Shown: positions 473-11,109 of the stretch, piece by piece
How positions within the stretch are numbered: position 1 is the stretch's first letter
Layout: each line of letters opens with the position of its first letter
NCBI GenBank assembly: GCA_913043905.1
Contig: CAJWNQ010000017.1
Coordinates: 1-35,460, forward strand
Length of the DNA stretch: 35,460 nucleotides
Direction of reading: 5' to 3'
Source: an uncultured Paracoccaceae bacterium
Lineage (GTDB): Bacteria > Pseudomonadota > Alphaproteobacteria > Rhodobacterales > Rhodobacteraceae
The notes under the pieces: generated by a model
Databases searched by the model: none
What the model was told of the DNA's origin: nothing
What the model saw: only the letters and a program-made list of their open reading frames with translations
Position numbers and translations under genes: made by a program

Positions 473-1024
473 TTAATTTCTAACCATTCTAGAAAATTTA
501 AACAAATAAATGAGCATAACCATTAAAATTATTTGTCCAGAAATGTCTCCAATAATAAATTGAAAAACAGTTATATTGAGAAAACTCATATTTAAAATAT
601 AATTAGTAATTACACTACTTGAAACTGACCCAATTACACCAGAGAATAATAAAAGTTTCCACTCTTTTTCTAAAATACCTTTAAATGCTCTAGAAGCTAA
701 TTGGACGGCAATCAGGCAACAGACCAAATGTATTATTGGTTGAATAGGATTAAGTGGAATTCCATTGCCATATACGTCAATAAACCACATCAGATATACT
801 GATGGCAGTAGTAGTGGCAAGGCTTTCCAGCCATAATAATATATAGCTAAAATGCGAATTCCGTGTGGTAAAAATAATATGCTAGCAGACCTATTATTAG
901 GGAAAGCTATATCTTGGATAGGTGAAATTAATCCACTGGTGACTGTGTAGCTAGCTATGTAAGCTAGACTAACAATTATAAAGGTTCCAATGCTATCACT
1001 GATAATTTGTTTCAAATTTCGCAA
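473..1024 (-). CDS. small multi-pass membrane protein under TPP riboswitch control (copy 1)
   Basis: An integral membrane protein of 183 residues with about five or six hydrophobic segments: roughly 12-33, one or two within 48-82, 96-113, 123-141 and 152-176. The central stretch with PHGIR, YYYGWKALP and LLPS resembles the core of MASE1-type sensor membrane domains, but no signalling domain is attached; that resemblance is from memory and is weak. The size also fits a small vitamin transporter of the S-component type. The leader carries a TPP riboswitch (1104-1188), so I infer a role in uptake or sensing of thiamine or a precursor. The start is TTG at 1024, with GGGA seven bases upstream. Copy 2 begins at the equivalent of the TTG at 1015, so that start is possible. 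Copy 2 at 1274-1822 is about 85% identical over the first 131 residues by my count. Substrate and function are unknown. Confidence 0.8.
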   Translation of the reverse strand: MRNLKQIISDSIGTFIIVSLAYIASYTVTSGLISPIQDIAFPNNRSASILFLPHGIRILAIYYYGWKALPLLLPSVYLMWFIDVYGNGIPLNPIQPIIHLVCCLIAVQLASRAFKGILEKEWKLLLFSGVIGSVSSSVITNYILNMSFLNITVFQFIIGDISGQIILMVMLIYLFKFSRMVRN

Positions 1025-1030
1025 TTGTTA

Positions 1031-1103
1031 TTCCCAATCTTTCATTAAAAAGGCAGATAGAACATAAGGAAATAGCTATTGAACTAATATATTGGTTCAA
1101 ATT
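1031..1103 (-). promoter_or_regulatory. leader between TPP riboswitch and copy-1 start; candidate translational switch
   Basis: In the RNA, UUUCCU (1072 down to 1067) can pair with AGGAAA at the 3' end of the riboswitch (1112-1107). It can instead pair with the Shine-Dalgarno-like GGGAA (1035-1031) ahead of the TTG start. The first pairing would compete with closing helix P1 when TPP is absent. The second would hide the ribosome site when TPP is bound. A short hairpin (1079-1100, TTGAAC/GTTCAA) lies between, with no U-run, so a terminator is unlikely. The mechanism is inferred from base pairing only. Confidence 0.4.
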
Positions 1104-1188
1104 CTGTTTCCTACGCCGGTCCTAACCAGTTCAGGTTCAATGGGTTAACGCTGTGCGTTTCTCAGCCTTTAATCAGGCACCCCAACAG
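1104..1188 (-). promoter_or_regulatory. TPP (THI-box) riboswitch
   Basis: The minus strand shows the conserved elements of the thiamine pyrophosphate riboswitch in order: GGGGTGC, the CTGAGA box, an ACCCATTGAACCTGAACTGG segment matching the usual ACC(N)TTGAACCTGATCTGG, then GCCAGCGTAGG as CCGGCGTAGGAAA. The closing helix P1 can form between CTGTT (1188-1184) and AACAG (1108-1104). In characterised cases TPP binding lowers expression of thiamine synthesis or uptake genes. The next gene downstream on this strand is the membrane protein at 473-1024. Confidence 0.93.
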
Positions 1189-1190
1189 TA

Positions 1191-1220
1191 ATATTATCAA
1201 GTATATTTACAAATAAACAA
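1191..1220 (-). promoter_or_regulatory. likely promoter of the riboswitch-membrane protein transcript
   Basis: The minus strand has TTGTTT (1220-1215) and TAATAT (1196-1191) separated by 18 bases. A start point about six bases further on falls at or just before helix P1 of the riboswitch. The -10 box matches the sigma-70 consensus well and the -35 box only partly. The placement relative to the riboswitch is the main support. Confidence 0.5.
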
Positions 1221-2696: not shown

Positions 2697-4280
2697 TTAC
2701 TTTCCTTTTAAATTAAAAGCTGCGGCTATTAATTCTCTAGTGTATTCTGATTTTGGATTTTCAAAAATTTCTTTGCTTGTACCAGTTTCTACTACGTCAC
2801 CTTTACACATGACTATAACCTTGTGACTTAGTGCACGAACAACTCTTAGATCGTGACTTATGAATAAATAGGCTAGTCCATATTTTTTTTGTAGCTGTCG
2901 TAAGAGATGAACTATTTGGACTTGAACAGTCATGTCCAAAGCTGAAGTTGGTTCATCTAAAATAAGAAGTTTAGGTTTTAAAATCATTGCGCGTGCAATT
3001 GCAATGCGTTGGCGTTGTCCTCCTGAAAACTCATGAGGATAACGATCTATCATATTAGACTGTAACCCCACCTCTATTAAAATATTTTTGACCATCTGGC
3101 GCCGATCTTGACCTTGATCTAGGCCATGAACATCTAGCCCCTCTGATACAATTTGTTCTATAGTGAAACGTGGTGAAAGAGATCCATATGGATCTTGGAA
3201 AACCATCTGCATATCTCGGCGTAAAGGTTTCAATTTTTTATTTGATAATCCATCTATATTTTTGTCCATGAACACTATTGAACCATTGGATGAAATTAGA
3301 CGCATTATTGCTAGAGCTAATGTAGTTTTGCCAGAACCACTTTCACCCACAACGCCAAGGGTTTCGCCTTCATGAATAGTTAAAGTGGTACTATTAACTG
3401 CTTTAACGTTACCTGTAACTTTGCGCATTATACCATTGAGAACGGGAAACCATACACGCAGCTCACTTGTACTAATAATTTTTTTAGCGACACCTTTTAT
3501 AGGATCTGGGCTGCCTGTTGGCTCTGCTTCTAATAGTTGTTTGGTATAAAGGTGTTTGGGGTTATTAAAAATTTCTATCGTTGGGCCAGTCTCTACAATT
3601 TTTCCATCTTTCATTACACAAACTCGATCTGCAATGCGTCGAACAACTCCCAAATCATGCGTGATGAACAACATTCCCATCCCTTCAGATTTTTGGATTG
3701 TTGCTAATAATTCTAAAATTTGGGCTTGTATGGTTACGTCCAAAGCAGTTGTAGGCTCATCTGCAATTAACAAATCAGGTTTATTTGCTAAAGCCATTGC
3801 AATCATAATTCGTTGCCGTTGGCCTCCAGAGAGTTGGTGGGGGTAATCAGTTAACCGCCGGTCTGCTTCATCTATGCCTACTTTAGATAGTAAATCTAAA
3901 ATCCGCAAACGAGCTTCCTGTCCTTTTACGCCTTGGTGTAGTGTAATACTTTCATTCAACTGATGCTCTATTGTGTGAAGCGGGTTGAGTGATGTCATGG
4001 GCTCTTGAAAAATAAAGCTTATATCATTACCTCTAATTTTTCGTAGGGTCGTATCTGATGCACCTATCATTTCCGTACCGCAATATTTTACAGATCCTGT
4101 AATTTTTGCAGAATCGCTAATCAGCTTTACTGTAGATAGTGCAGTGACTGATTTTCCTGAGCCACTTTCACCTACTAGGGCAACAGTTTCACCTTTTCTC
4201 AAACTAAGATTAACGTTTGATACAGCTTCATTACCATCAAAGTGAACAGATAGATTTTTGATCTCTAAAATCTGGTTCAT
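2697..4280 (-). CDS. yejF: oligopeptide-type ABC transporter, double ATP-binding protein (YejF-like)
   Basis: The ATPase subunit that powers the importer encoded by the three upstream genes. It is a 527-residue fusion of two ABC domains. The first has Walker A GESGSGKS (37-44), signature LSGGQRQR and Walker B LLIADEPTTALD. The second has Walker A GESGSGKT (about 313-320), signature FSGGQRQR and Walker B LLILDEPTSALD. Length and tandem layout fit the YejF/DppDF-fusion family, and both sites look intact. The ATG overlaps the TGA of yejE by four bases (ATGA), so translation is coupled; it is the last gene of the operon. The protein acts on the cytoplasmic face of the inner membrane. Substrate cannot be read from this subunit. 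Confidence 0.93.
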   Translation of the reverse strand: MNQILEIKNLSVHFDGNEAVSNVNLSLRKGETVALVGESGSGKSVTALSTVKLISDSAKITGSVKYCGTEMIGASDTTLRKIRGNDISFIFQEPMTSLNPLHTIEHQLNESITLHQGVKGQEARLRILDLLSKVGIDEADRRLTDYPHQLSGGQRQRIMIAMALANKPDLLIADEPTTALDVTIQAQILELLATIQKSEGMGMLFITHDLGVVRRIADRVCVMKDGKIVETGPTIEIFNNPKHLYTKQLLEAEPTGSPDPIKGVAKKIISTSELRVWFPVLNGIMRKVTGNVKAVNSTTLTIHEGETLGVVGESGSGKTTLALAIMRLISSNGSIVFMDKNIDGLSNKKLKPLRRDMQMVFQDPYGSLSPRFTIEQIVSEGLDVHGLDQGQDRRQMVKNILIEVGLQSNMIDRYPHEFSGGQRQRIAIARAMILKPKLLILDEPTSALDMTVQVQIVHLLRQLQKKYGLAYLFISHDLRVVRALSHKVIVMCKGDVVETGTSKEIFENPKSEYTRELIAAAFNLKGK

Positions 4281-5398
4281 TTAAATGTCTTTCTTGGATC
4301 AAAGGCATCGCGAACACCTTCGAAGACGAAAACCAACAGTGAAAGCATAGTTGCTAAAGTGATAAACGCTGAGAAGGCTAGCCAAGGTGCTTGTAGATTA
4401 TTCTTTGCTTGTAGGGCCAATTCGCCAAGAGATGGATAACTTGGTGGTAAGCCATAGCCCAAGAAATCTAGTGTTGTTAACGTGCCAATTGATGCAGTGA
4501 TAGTGAATGGTAAAAATGTTAGTGTGGCTACCATTGCATTTGGTAATAGATGCCTAAACATGATTTTTATATCACTTACGCCCATTGCCCTAGCCGCACG
4601 AGTATATTCAAAATTGCGTGCGCGCAAAAACTCAGCGCGCACCACGCCCAATAAACCAGTCCAACTAAATAAAATTACTAAGAATACTAATATTGGAAAG
4701 GTTATGTTAAATAATGATGCCATTATAATAATAACATAAAGCATTGGCATTCCATCCCAAATTTCTACTAGTCTTTGAAGAATTAAATCAACCCAACCCC
4801 CAAAATAACCCATTACTGCACCAGCTGCGATTCCAATGACGGAGCTAAAAAATACTACTAGTAATCCAAATATTGTAGAGATGCGAAATCCATAGATTAT
4901 ACGTGCCACAACATCGCGGGTCTGATCATCAGTGCCTAAAAAATGGTTACTATCGGGTGCTGATGGAGCTCGCTCAATATCATAATTTATTGTATCAAAA
5001 CTATAAGGTATGGGGGCCCATAACATCCAACCTTTCATAATATCTGCGCCAGAAATTTTTGTTTTACCAGCTTCTAGAGCTGCGATTGTGGCTTCTGGTT
5101 CATCCAAACAAATTTCTAGACCGCCAGACCTTATCAAACATTGGGTTTCAATTTCTTTATAAATTGCTTCTGTTTGAAAATCACCACCAAAATAAAATTC
5201 AGAATAATATTTAAAGGCGGGTGAATGGATTTCACCTCTATAGCTTGCTAACAAGGGCTTATCATTTGCTATTAACTCTGCAAATAAGCATAAGAAAAAA
5301 ATTACCCCAAACATCCAGAGTGACCATAAAGCACGCCTGTTTGCTTTAAAATTTTGCCAACGCCTTGTTGCCAATGGTGTTTTAAATACTAATACCAT
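4277..5398 (-). CDS. yejE: oligopeptide-type ABC transporter permease (YejE-like)
   Basis: The second membrane subunit of the importer, 373 residues. An N-terminal hydrophobic segment (about 25-45) is followed by a large periplasmic loop of about 130 residues, then five hydrophobic segments in the C-terminal half with the BPD_transp_1 coupling loop (ARAMGVSDIKIMFRHLLPNA). The long loop with KISGADIMKG and GTDDQTRDVVARIIYG is typical of the YejE/DppC class. The ATG overlaps the last base of the yejB stop (TAATG). It pairs with YejB to form the channel. Confidence 0.92.
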   Translation of the reverse strand: MVLVFKTPLATRRWQNFKANRRALWSLWMFGVIFFLCLFAELIANDKPLLASYRGEIHSPAFKYYSEFYFGGDFQTEAIYKEIETQCLIRSGGLEICLDEPEATIAALEAGKTKISGADIMKGWMLWAPIPYSFDTINYDIERAPSAPDSNHFLGTDDQTRDVVARIIYGFRISTIFGLLVVFFSSVIGIAAGAVMGYFGGWVDLILQRLVEIWDGMPMLYVIIIMASLFNITFPILVFLVILFSWTGLLGVVRAEFLRARNFEYTRAARAMGVSDIKIMFRHLLPNAMVATLTFLPFTITASIGTLTTLDFLGYGLPPSYPSLGELALQAKNNLQAPWLAFSAFITLATMLSLLVFVFEGVRDAFDPRKTFK

Positions 5399-6483
5399 TA
5401 TGTTTCACGGTTTCCAAAATCAATGCGAGGGTCAATCCAGATATAAGTCAGATCTGAAAGCAATTTTATAAGTAACCCTATTAAAGCAAATATATATAAT
5501 GTTGCAAAAAATACTTGATAGTCGCGGTTTACTGCTGCTTCATAACCAAGAAGACCTAACCCATCTAGAGAAAATATTACTTCAATAATGAGAGATCCAC
5601 CAAAGAAAATACCAACAAATAATGCTGGAAATCCACTTATAACTATTAGCATGGCATTTCGAAAAACATGTCCATAAAACACCTTAAATTCGGTTAGTCC
5701 TTTTGCTCGGGCTGTCATTACATATTGTTTGTTAATTTCGTCTAAAAAACTATTTTTAGTTAAAAGTGTTAAAGTAGCAAAAGCAGCAATTGTTGATGTT
5801 AAAATTGGTAGTGCCGCATGCCAGAAATAATCAATAATACGCTCAAATATACCAAAATTAGATGCTCCTTCAGACGATAACCCGCGCAAGGGAAAAATTT
5901 GCCAGTATGATCCGCCTGCAAACAATACAATTAGTAGAATGCCAAAAAGTAACCCAGGAATAGCATACGCTGCTATAATAATTCCAGATGTCCACACATC
6001 AAATGGAGACCCATCTTTAACTGCCTTGCGGATACCGAGGGGAATAGAAACCAAATAGGCTAGTAGTGTAGACCAAAGGCCAAGTGTTATTGATACAGGC
6101 ATTTTTTCAAGAATTAAATCAATAATAGTAATTGATCGAAAGTAACTTTCACCAAAATCAAATCGTGCGTAGTTCCACAGCATTGTCAGAAACCGTTCAA
6201 CTGGAGGTTTGTCAAAGCCAAATTGTTTTTCTAAATCTGCAATTAGTTCGGGGGGTAATCCTCGGGCACCTTTATATTCGCTACTCTCAGATTGGCCTAC
6301 TGAATCATCACCGCTTCCTCCTGTAAACCGATCTGTAGCCCCTGCAGACCCATCCTCCATTTGTGCAATGATCTGTTCGATTGGTCCACCAGGAACAAAC
6401 TGAATTAATGCGAAATTAATAACCATAATTCCTATTAAGGTAGGTATTATTAAAAATAACCGTCTAAGAATGTAGGCTCCCAT
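5398..6483 (-). CDS. yejB: oligopeptide-type ABC transporter permease (YejB-like)
   Basis: The first membrane subunit of the importer, 361 residues. It opens with the class hallmark [10 protein letters not shown] and a first membrane helix (residues 9-30) ending in a GGP turn. A hydrophilic periplasmic loop (about 35-90) follows, then five further hydrophobic segments and the coupling motif [22 protein letters not shown]. The YejB/DppB family usually runs 340-365 residues, so it is full length. The ATG abuts the yejA stop directly, implying co-translation. It partners with YejE and docks on YejF. Confidence 0.93.
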
Positions 6484-8346
6484 TTATTTGAATGCACCCT
6501 TTGCAATGAGATCATCATATTTAGATTGATCAAACCACCAAGTACTCATAACCCCTAAGTCAAATTTTGGTTTAATTTTTGGGCGGCCAAATACATCCCA
6601 ATATGCCAAGCGATCCTCCGCCAAGTGCCAATTTGGGATACGTATATGATAAGCACGTAAAATACGATCAATAGCTCGAACAGCAATATGCATTTCCTCA
6701 CGAGATTTTGCACCACCCACTTTTTTGATTAAGTCGTCTACTGCAGGATGTCCAAAACCAGATAGATTTGCACCACCTAATTGCTTGATACCAACAGATC
6801 CATATAATTGTGCAATTTCCTCTCCAGGACTTAGGCTTGTACCATATCCTGCAACTAAAACGTCAAAATCATAGCTTTTCATACGTTCAATCATTTGTGC
6901 TCGGTCAATTTGTGTAAATTTTGCTACAATTCCAGCACGTTTCATTGTGTCTATGATTGGAGTTAAGATGTGTAAAAAATCATCATTGTCATCAATAAAT
7001 TCAATTTTAAATGGCTTACCATTTTTATCTTTTAAAACCCCGGTGTCTAATACCCAGCCGGCTTCTGCTAGTAAATTACTTGCTTTTCGCAATGCACTGC
7101 GGTCAAATTTACTCTGTTTCATTACTGGAGGAACGTAAGCTTGCTCATCAAATACAGTTGGCAGTAATTGATCGCGATAGGGTTCTAATAAAGTCAGTTC
7201 TTCGGGGCTTATCATACCTTGAGCTTGCATTGATGAGTTTTCCCAAAAACTATCAGACCGGGTGTAAGAATCATAGAATACTGTTTTGTTTGTCCACTCA
7301 AAATTAAACAAATGCTGCAATGCTTCGCGTGTTTTAATATTCTTAAACTGCTGTTTACGTAGATTCATCCAGATGCCTTGATTTGATTGTGGTGTACCAT
7401 CAGGAAGTTGTTCAGCCATCACCCAGCCTTTTTGTATTGCGGGGAAATCGTATTGTGTTTTCCACTTTTTTGATATGTTTTCTTCACGAACTAAATATGC
7501 ACCACTTTTAAATGCTTCAAAACTAACGTCACCATCTTTAAAATACTCATACCGAATGCAATCAAAATTTCCGGAGCCTACATTAGCTGGATGAGTTTTA
7601 GCCCAGTAATTATCTATTTTACAATATTTCACAAATAGACCTGGTTCAAAGTCAGCTATAGTATACCCACCAGAACCAACGGGTATATCTGTGCCTGATT
7701 TGCCGAAGTCTCGATCTTTCCAATAATGTTTTGGTAGGATGCCTAATCCGCCGGCATACTGAGGTAAATCTCGCGTATTTGCGCCTTCCTTAAATGTAAA
7801 TTTAACTGTTTTTTCGCCTAATACTTCAACTTTTTCAAAATCCTTGAAAAATACATTTTTATAAAATGGATGACCTTTTTCGATCAATATATTTCTAGTA
7901 AATACGACATCATGTGCTGTAATAGATGTCCCATCAGAAAATGTTGCATCACTACGGATCTTAAAAGTTACTGACGAACGATCCTCTGGATATTTCATAC
8001 TTTCTGCCATATATAAATATGAGCTATCTGGCTCGTCAGATGTAGAGGTTAGTAAGCTATCAGACAATAGGCCTAGTCCTGTTACGCGCGCGCCTTTGAG
8101 AATGTAATTATTAAAGCTATCAAAAGTTGATCCGCCAGTGGACGGGCGCAAAGTTAATGTCCCGCCTTGTGGAGCGTTTGGGTTAACATATTCAAAGTGT
8201 TTATAATTTTCTGGATACTTTAAATCTCCATATGCTGAGATGCCATGAGAGTTAATTGTTTCTTGCGCATTAATACTACTTCCTAATGTAAGTATTGATC
8301 CTAAAATTATTGTGCTAACTACCTTTTGATACCATTGAATTGTCAT
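6484..8346 (-). CDS. yejA: periplasmic solute-binding protein, family 5 (YejA-like)
   Basis: The binding protein that delivers substrate to the YejBEF importer. Residues 1-27 form a signal peptide (a basic start, a hydrophobic core TIILGSILTLGSS, then INAQ and probable cleavage). The mature part starts in the YejA/SBP_bac_5 manner (HGISAYGDLKYP, YVNPNAPQGG) and continues for about 590 residues; total length 620 is normal. The ATG has a strong ribosome site (GGAGG, six bases upstream) and a possible promoter at 8368-8395. As first gene of the four-gene operon it sets expression for the rest. Relatives import oligopeptides and, in enterics, microcin C; the natural substrate here is inferred to be peptides. 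Confidence 0.93.
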   Translation of the reverse strand: MTIQWYQKVVSTIILGSILTLGSSINAQETINSHGISAYGDLKYPENYKHFEYVNPNAPQGGTLTLRPSTGGSTFDSFNNYILKGARVTGLGLLSDSLLTSTSDEPDSSYLYMAESMKYPEDRSSVTFKIRSDATFSDGTSITAHDVVFTRNILIEKGHPFYKNVFFKDFEKVEVLGEKTVKFTFKEGANTRDLPQYAGGLGILPKHYWKDRDFGKSGTDIPVGSGGYTIADFEPGLFVKYCKIDNYWAKTHPANVGSGNFDCIRYEYFKDGDVSFEAFKSGAYLVREENISKKWKTQYDFPAIQKGWVMAEQLPDGTPQSNQGIWMNLRKQQFKNIKTREALQHLFNFEWTNKTVFYDSYTRSDSFWENSSMQAQGMISPEELTLLEPYRDQLLPTVFDEQAYVPPVMKQSKFDRSALRKASNLLAEAGWVLDTGVLKDKNGKPFKIEFIDDNDDFLHILTPIIDTMKRAGIVAKFTQIDRAQMIERMKSYDFDVLVAGYGTSLSPGEEIAQLYGSVGIKQLGGANLSGFGHPAVDDLIKKVGGAKSREEMHIAVRAIDRILRAYHIRIPNWHLAEDRLAYWDVFGRPKIKPKFDLGVMSTWWFDQSKYDDLIAKGAFK

Positions 8347-11006: not shown

Positions 11007-11109
11007 GGGTCGAGAGGTTGGCGCGGGCAAGCGCCTCGCCAACTCGGTCAGGTCCGGAAGGAAGCAGCCGCAACGAGCCCCGTTTGGGCCGCTGTCCAGC
11101 CTCTCACCC
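11007..11109 (+). ncRNA. ffs: signal recognition particle RNA, bacterial small (4.5S) type
   Basis: The RNA core of the signal recognition particle, which binds Ffh and targets nascent membrane proteins to FtsY. The conserved apical part GGTCAGGTCCGGAAGGAAGC with its GGAA tetraloop and asymmetric loop is intact. The ends close the long hairpin (GGGTCGAGAGG with CCTCTCACCC). Length is about 103 nt. It lies upstream of dnaX-ybaB-recR, a common alphaproteobacterial arrangement. A run of eight A residues follows; I see no clear terminator. Confidence 0.96.

Follow-up and report, generated by a model that had tools for sequence, protein, structure and literature searches.

A complete TPP riboswitch leads into an intact gene for a MASE1-like membrane protein (copy B) in the window analysed here, the whole 35,460-nt contig of a draft genome from an uncultured marine Paracoccaceae bacterium. 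A decayed duplicate of the same gene (copy A) lies on the other side of the riboswitch, next to a gene for a small winged-helix protein, and the membrane gene and the winged-helix gene occur as conserved neighbours in relatives. The riboswitch and the gene are real; their arrangement is rare, seen in one genome. Our preferred reading, which we put a little short of an even chance, is that copy B is a thiamine-gated, MASE1-like membrane partner of the winged-helix regulator, its level probably being set by vitamin B1 through the predicted switch. Copy B and the winged-helix protein may be physical partners, as gene order suggests, and copy B may act in sensing and may affect transcription.

Results

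A complete TPP aptamer lies between two copies of a membrane gene

The locus reads 5' to 3' on the minus strand as a tRNA (2556-2629; anticodon ACG, read from the sequence as Arg), the winged-helix gene (1819-2112; 97 aa), copy A (1310-1831), which the winged-helix gene overlaps, a riboswitch-bearing segment of 285 nt (1025-1309), copy B (473-1024) and a second tRNA (219-292; anticodon UCG, again read as Arg). The two tRNAs form the boundaries of the locus and hold the same positions in loci L033 to L036 of relatives. Within the segment, the aptamer (1194-1091, minus strand) matched the Rfam TPP family RF00059 over its full length (model positions 1-105 of 105) with 76.4 bits against a gathering cut-off of 54.3 (E = 1.5e-13), a match that encloses the TPP riboswitch placed at 1104-1188 by the first-pass annotation. 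A custom model built from 29 other riboswitches, the thiB riboswitch of the same genome included and that of the window left out, found it again with 75.6 bits.

Base pairing in the aptamer was examined in an alignment of 14 riboswitches, namely the window riboswitch and 13 chosen from 43. Changes on both sides were seen in 12 of the 28 consensus pairs, a level reached by 1 of 500 shuffles; 89.3% of the cells were paired, and there were 34 both-side cells compared to 13.3 in the shuffles. Further pair types did not exceed the shuffles in this alignment, 493 of 500 being as high. In the window riboswitch 24 of the 28 pairs are standard and 4 non-standard, and pair 8-93 of P1 is U-A, against C-G in the 13 other rows.

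The nearest relative of the window riboswitch is of the thiD type (70% identity, against 67% to the thiB riboswitch of its own genome), which suggests that the leader may derive from a lost thiD-type leader. When the 285-nt segment was compared with the rest of its own genome, the riboswitch core alone matched (60 nt, 75%, E = 5e-4), the next-best match having E = 0.04. Recent copying from the genome's own thiB leader was also considered, and rejected because the match is limited to this 60-nt core at 75%. The thiD-to-thiF region of a relative likewise matched the genome of the window at the riboswitch core alone, and the 285-nt segment had no counterpart in the locus of the closest relative beyond short, chance-level matches.

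Two further features of the window were recorded. A peptide-type ABC transporter operon resembling YejABEF adjoins the locus (2697-8346); of its parts, only the YejB-like permease exceeds the NCBIfam cut-off, and by eye the same order is seen in L033, L034 and L036. A bacterial small SRP RNA (11012-11108; 55.9 bits) lies directly upstream of the DNA polymerase III gamma/tau gene.

The linker to copy B is predicted to form a translational switch

The aptamer stands 66 nt from copy B, which is the sole ORF of at least 90 aa from the riboswitch to the tRNA at 292-219. From partition functions and linker shuffles we predict that these 66 nt (1025-1090, minus strand) form an expression platform. 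The linker motif UUUCCU (approximately 1072-1067) can pair with AGGAAA of the 3' side of the aptamer (1112-1107), and without ligand this pairing has a best pair probability of 0.999 at 25 C. In the bound state, linker bases 1072-1068 pair with the ribosome site GGGAA (1035-1031) with a probability of approximately 0.42, the remaining pairing of the site being spread over linker bases such as 1064-1059. At 37 C the ribosome site was unpaired with a mean probability of 0.54 in the free state and of 0.14 once the aptamer helices were enforced. Computed energies at 37 C, from which the energy of the ligand is excluded, favour the unliganded fold (-44.3 versus -38.7 kcal/mol).

Among 200 shuffles of the linker at 37 C, the change in access was reached by 3%, the ratio by 4% and the aptamer-linker pairing by 3.5%; at 20 C the corresponding values were 3%, 7% and 1%. 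No shuffle reached the access change and the aptamer-linker pairing jointly (0 of 200 at 37 C and at 20 C), a zero that is also expected under independence because the single rates are so low. The computed folding fits a translational off-switch, a mode of control described for other TPP riboswitches, and the predicted platform fits the start of the gene at 473-1024, in agreement with the first-pass annotation, which had tied the riboswitch to this gene. The window riboswitch resembles known TPP riboswitches of the translational type in its full-length RF00059 match and in the predicted occlusion of the ribosome site in the bound state, and differs from them in leading into a MASE1-like gene instead of a gene of thiamine synthesis or uptake, and in its position between duplicated genes.

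Copy B belongs to a family with MASE1-like members

Copy B is an intact ORF with a TTG start and 183 aa, and its AlphaFold2 model (pLDDT 93.8, pTM 0.88) contains five long helices. For this protein no Pfam family scored at E = 1 or below, an NCBIfam search was also empty, and a profile search of PDB sequences gave no match up to E = 10. Relatives were present in 29 genomes out of 198 in the family and in 6 out of 33 in the genus, both counts including the window's own genome. When the contigs of named genomes were scanned, the single protein gave no relative, whereas an alignment of relatives gave 240; the 80 best of these serve as the named loci, nearly all of them titled as Rhodobacteraceae or as genera of that family, and one titled Flavobacteriaceae.

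Twenty-eight of 63 aligned members matched MASE1 (PF05231) at E up to 1, with a best value of 3.1e-9, as did 11 of 24 members of a smaller alignment. The earlier view of the protein as unassigned holds for copy B itself, which lies below detection, and fails for those relatives that share the MASE1 profile match with proteins such as YfgF. The 62 other aligned members have ten invariant residues, all of which copy B keeps. Copy B departs from YfgF-type MASE1 proteins in several respects. YfgF has up to 9 membrane-spanning regions according to PMC3718329, compared to five long helices in the 183 aa of copy B. MASE1 proteins usually, although not universally, carry a fused output domain; copy B is one membrane domain with none fused, and in its family a separate winged-helix gene adjoins. 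PMC3718329 also notes that MASE1 domains stand alone in 20 genera and describes a redox-responsive effect of YfgF on aspartate taxis, and PMC8846402 lists MASE1 among sensory domains without discernible physiological purpose.

A winged-helix gene accompanies the membrane gene in relatives

A winged-helix homologue was found within 900 nt upstream of the membrane gene in 76 of the 80 named loci with an iterated profile, in which weak members gain from strong ones because the profile was iterated on the same 80 loci. Among the remaining four, L036 has a winged-helix gene before the first of two tandem membrane-gene copies, and L046, L049 and L063 have no homologue in the 900 nt upstream by this profile. 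The gap between the two genes exceeds 600 nt in L035 and L061. By gene order, the winged-helix gene and the MASE1-like membrane gene are a conserved two-gene unit in relatives. Another set of neighbours (a two-component system, a presumed pckA and others) recurs in approximately 32 of the 80 loci, mostly in Ruegeria and near kin, and is explained by shared ancestry. Matches to Rfam PYLIS_3, the mttB pyrrolysine insertion sequence, were also noted near homologues (L012:219-321, L018:228-330 and L039:10875-10974).

In the window, the winged-helix gene precedes copy A, not copy B, and its dN/dS against the closest relative is 0.08. The model of its product is a winged helix (pLDDT 90.5) with SarA and BpsR as best PDB matches (E = 0.005 and 0.007) and no PDB match below E = 0.001. 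BpsR is a MarR-type regulator. Weak Pfam matches to MarR_2 and to the IclR helix-turn-helix were each found in 23 of 42 winged-helix members, and the window protein itself had no Pfam match. The predicted fold resembles that of MarR/SarA-type regulators, from which the window protein differs in its size of approximately 97 aa and in being tied to a membrane gene.

Copy B is a duplicate whose constraint is uncertain

Copies A and B share 90% identity over 520 nt and 82% at the protein level. Copy A (1831-1310) is broken: it has one TGA and one TAA in frame, it has lost two of the ten invariant residues (Arg57 to Ile and Asp160 to Gly), and its 3' end no longer matches. In the closest relative's locus, L033 (uncultured Amylibacter FRAM18_bin019), a single membrane gene separates the winged-helix gene from the tRNA. 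The winged-helix gene and copy A are collinear with L033 (80% over 1343 nt), as are copy B and the DNA downstream of it (85% over 779 nt). Synonymous divergence (dS) is 0.14 between A and B and 0.27-0.28 between each of them and L033, and L142 of genome G220 gave the same figures as L033. By sequence comparison, copy B is a recent duplicate, and within the present sampling the duplication together with the riboswitch appears confined to this lineage. L035 and L036 (HTCC2255) have two tandem membrane-gene copies (L035:1893-3162; L036:5244-6546) in the same tRNA-flanked place, with no TPP match; by eye, a short stretch ahead of the second copy is common to their two spacers.

Purifying selection on copy B was expected and was not clearly found. 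Its dN/dS against L033, a simple Nei-Gojobori count on AT-rich DNA, was 0.67, a value of near-neutral or fast evolution, compared to 0.22 and 0.19 in two other close family pairs (L035 with L036, copies b and a). Protein-altering changes made up 19 of 25 on the B branch and 17 of 22 on the A branch, and the amino-acid changes of copy B did not significantly avoid conserved columns (P = 0.28). Since clear purifying selection is lacking, the locus may be decaying. The riboswitch could then be a genomic accident, a leftover thiD-type leader before a decaying duplicate, which may fold and yet control nothing that matters. The occurrence in one genome among those examined, the state of copy A, the substitution pattern of copy B, the thiD-type affinity of the riboswitch and the failure to find thiD in its genome all speak for such an accident. 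Against it, the frame of copy B is whole and retains every invariant residue where copy A has lost two, P1 of the aptamer retains a pair changed on both sides, and the linker surpasses 93 to 99% of shuffles by single measures. We regard the accident as unlikely, and as the next most probable reading after the preferred one.

The thiamine setting and the question of transport

The draft genome (2.02 Mb, 83 contigs, 92.65% complete) contains two TPP riboswitches, the other of which leads into genes read as thiBPQ. ThiC, the ThiD kinase family and ThiG had no match in it at E = 0.001. The organism is probably a thiamine auxotroph, with approximately 7% of the genome missing from the draft; because ThiC, ThiD and ThiG gave no match, it probably imports thiamine. 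The expectation that part of the thiamine pathway would be missing is thus supported. A TPP riboswitch is present in 32 of 33 genomes of the genus and ThiC in 3 of 33. When the translations behind the 43 genus riboswitch sites outside the window were read, 26 led into thiB, 13 into thiD and 3 into thiC, and 1 ran off its contig.

Homologues of copy B were searched for the same arrangement. The membrane gene was led by a TPP riboswitch in 0 of 28 loci (flanks up to 1.5 kb), in 0 of the 12 first named loci by Rfam, and in 0 of 90 loci (80 named and 10 from the genus) by the custom model, L146 having only 30 nt upstream; the three sets overlap or share organisms. The arrangement is accordingly confined to one genome among those examined. 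Matches in L089 (16 bits, E = 0.11) and L070 (11 bits, E = 3.1) were at chance level and away from the gene. L056 (Jannaschia seohaensis, 4979-6857) has a TPP riboswitch and presumed thiBPQ divergent from the winged-helix/membrane pair, on the opposite strand, and a second TPP riboswitch (6857-6761, minus strand) before a presumed peptide-binding-protein remnant. A recurring thiamine linkage by way of L056 was rejected: it is 1 of 80 loci, and we do not count it as support because a rough, uncomputed estimate gives 0.2 to 0.4 such neighbours by chance. The first-pass annotation had proposed a candidate new transporter for thiamine or a precursor. That the homologues form a family of thiamine-regulated transporters finds no support in the 28-locus and 90-locus searches or in the upstream winged-helix gene; they proved largely free of any link to thiamine and assignable to another family, L056 beside thiBPQ being the exception.

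Structure comparison gave no significant match. The lowest Foldseek E-value of the copy B model against the PDB was 1.0 among the matches listed (50 of 169). By TM-score normalised to the query, the best of these 50 were BioY (0.50), TmRibU (0.48), CbiM (0.43) and ThiT (0.38 and 0.34), all further listed matches having TM at most 0.30. Their E-values were 1.6 for BioY and 1.9 for TmRibU, and five chains that are not S-components rank above BioY by E. The S-component superpositions had rmsd values of 5.9 to 7.6, and that of CbiM 14.0. An hhalign comparison with 30 sequences of BioY, the sole S-component tried, was not significant (probability 0.44% over 30 columns); in it, the invariant Gly-Asp of the family's last helix aligned with a Gly-Asp of BioY. 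Among the 50 of 169 matches listed, ECF S-components (BioY, RibU, ThiT) have the top TM-scores to copy B; copy B differs from them in that neither sequence nor fold comparison gives a significant E-value, in that ECF genes were not noticed in its vicinity and in its winged-helix neighbour. The model weakly suggests an S-component shape, which we treat as a lead only.

These data bear on the proposal that copy B itself takes up thiamine or a related compound, as a stand-alone, S-component-like carrier that the riboswitch would have recruited in an auxotroph. Such a role would suit the missing synthesis genes, the thiB, thiD and thiC targets of the other riboswitches in the genus, the rank of the S-components by TM-score and the Gly-Asp alignment. 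It is opposed by the fold and profile scores and by the absence of a PDB sequence match, by a constant neighbour that is a winged-helix gene, by the presumed ThiBPQ already placed behind the other TPP riboswitch, and by the location of the genome's sole EcfT-family (CbiQ-family) match approximately 90 nt from BioY, for which reason this protein is probably dedicated to biotin. We consider the carrier rather improbable. A thiamine-gated sensor partner is likelier than a transporter, given the MASE1-like relatives, the winged-helix neighbour, the lack of any other riboswitch-led homologue and the presence of thiBPQ; of the alternatives in the first-pass annotation, the thiamine-responsive membrane regulator fits better in so far as relatives match MASE1.

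It is very improbable that the riboswitch or the second copy was misplaced in assembly, even in so fragmented and incomplete a draft and with the locus at the contig start, since the flanking tRNAs and the order of winged-helix and membrane gene are as in L033 to L036, 10% of sites differ between A and B, and the riboswitch segment occurs in full only once in the genome.

Discussion

The thiamine-gated partner that we favour would have arisen by the rewiring, in this lineage, of the conserved unit of a winged-helix gene and a MASE1-like membrane gene. The sequences show that the membrane gene has been duplicated, that the copy beside the regulator has decayed, and that the intact copy B stands behind the TPP riboswitch. 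With TPP plentiful, the aptamer would form P1, the linker would pair with the ribosome site and copy B would remain untranslated; with TPP low, the 3' side of the aptamer would pair with the linker, the ribosome site would open and copy B would be made. If copy B is a membrane sensor or anchor partner, thiamine shortage would then alter the activity of the winged-helix regulator.

A bolder reading, to which we attach a low probability, is that the stand-alone MASE1-like family consists of S-component-shaped receptors for small molecules, each passing its signal to a separate winged-helix regulator, and that in this lineage one such receptor has become thiamine-gated through a captured TPP riboswitch. 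We know of no described circuit in which a vitamin signal feeds a pair of membrane receptor and transcription factor, and a literature search for such a circuit found no relevant paper.

TPP riboswitches usually mark thiamine genes, as at all 42 readable genus sites outside the window; the window riboswitch marks a member of a membrane-sensor family. The signals of MASE1 domains are poorly known. The conservation of the pair, with a MASE1-like partner of possible S-component shape, is the wider result and can be examined independently of the riboswitch. If the switch works, it would show the capture of a riboswitch during gene duplication, and thiamine would provide a defined handle on a winged-helix/membrane pair that recurs across the Rhodobacteraceae sampled.
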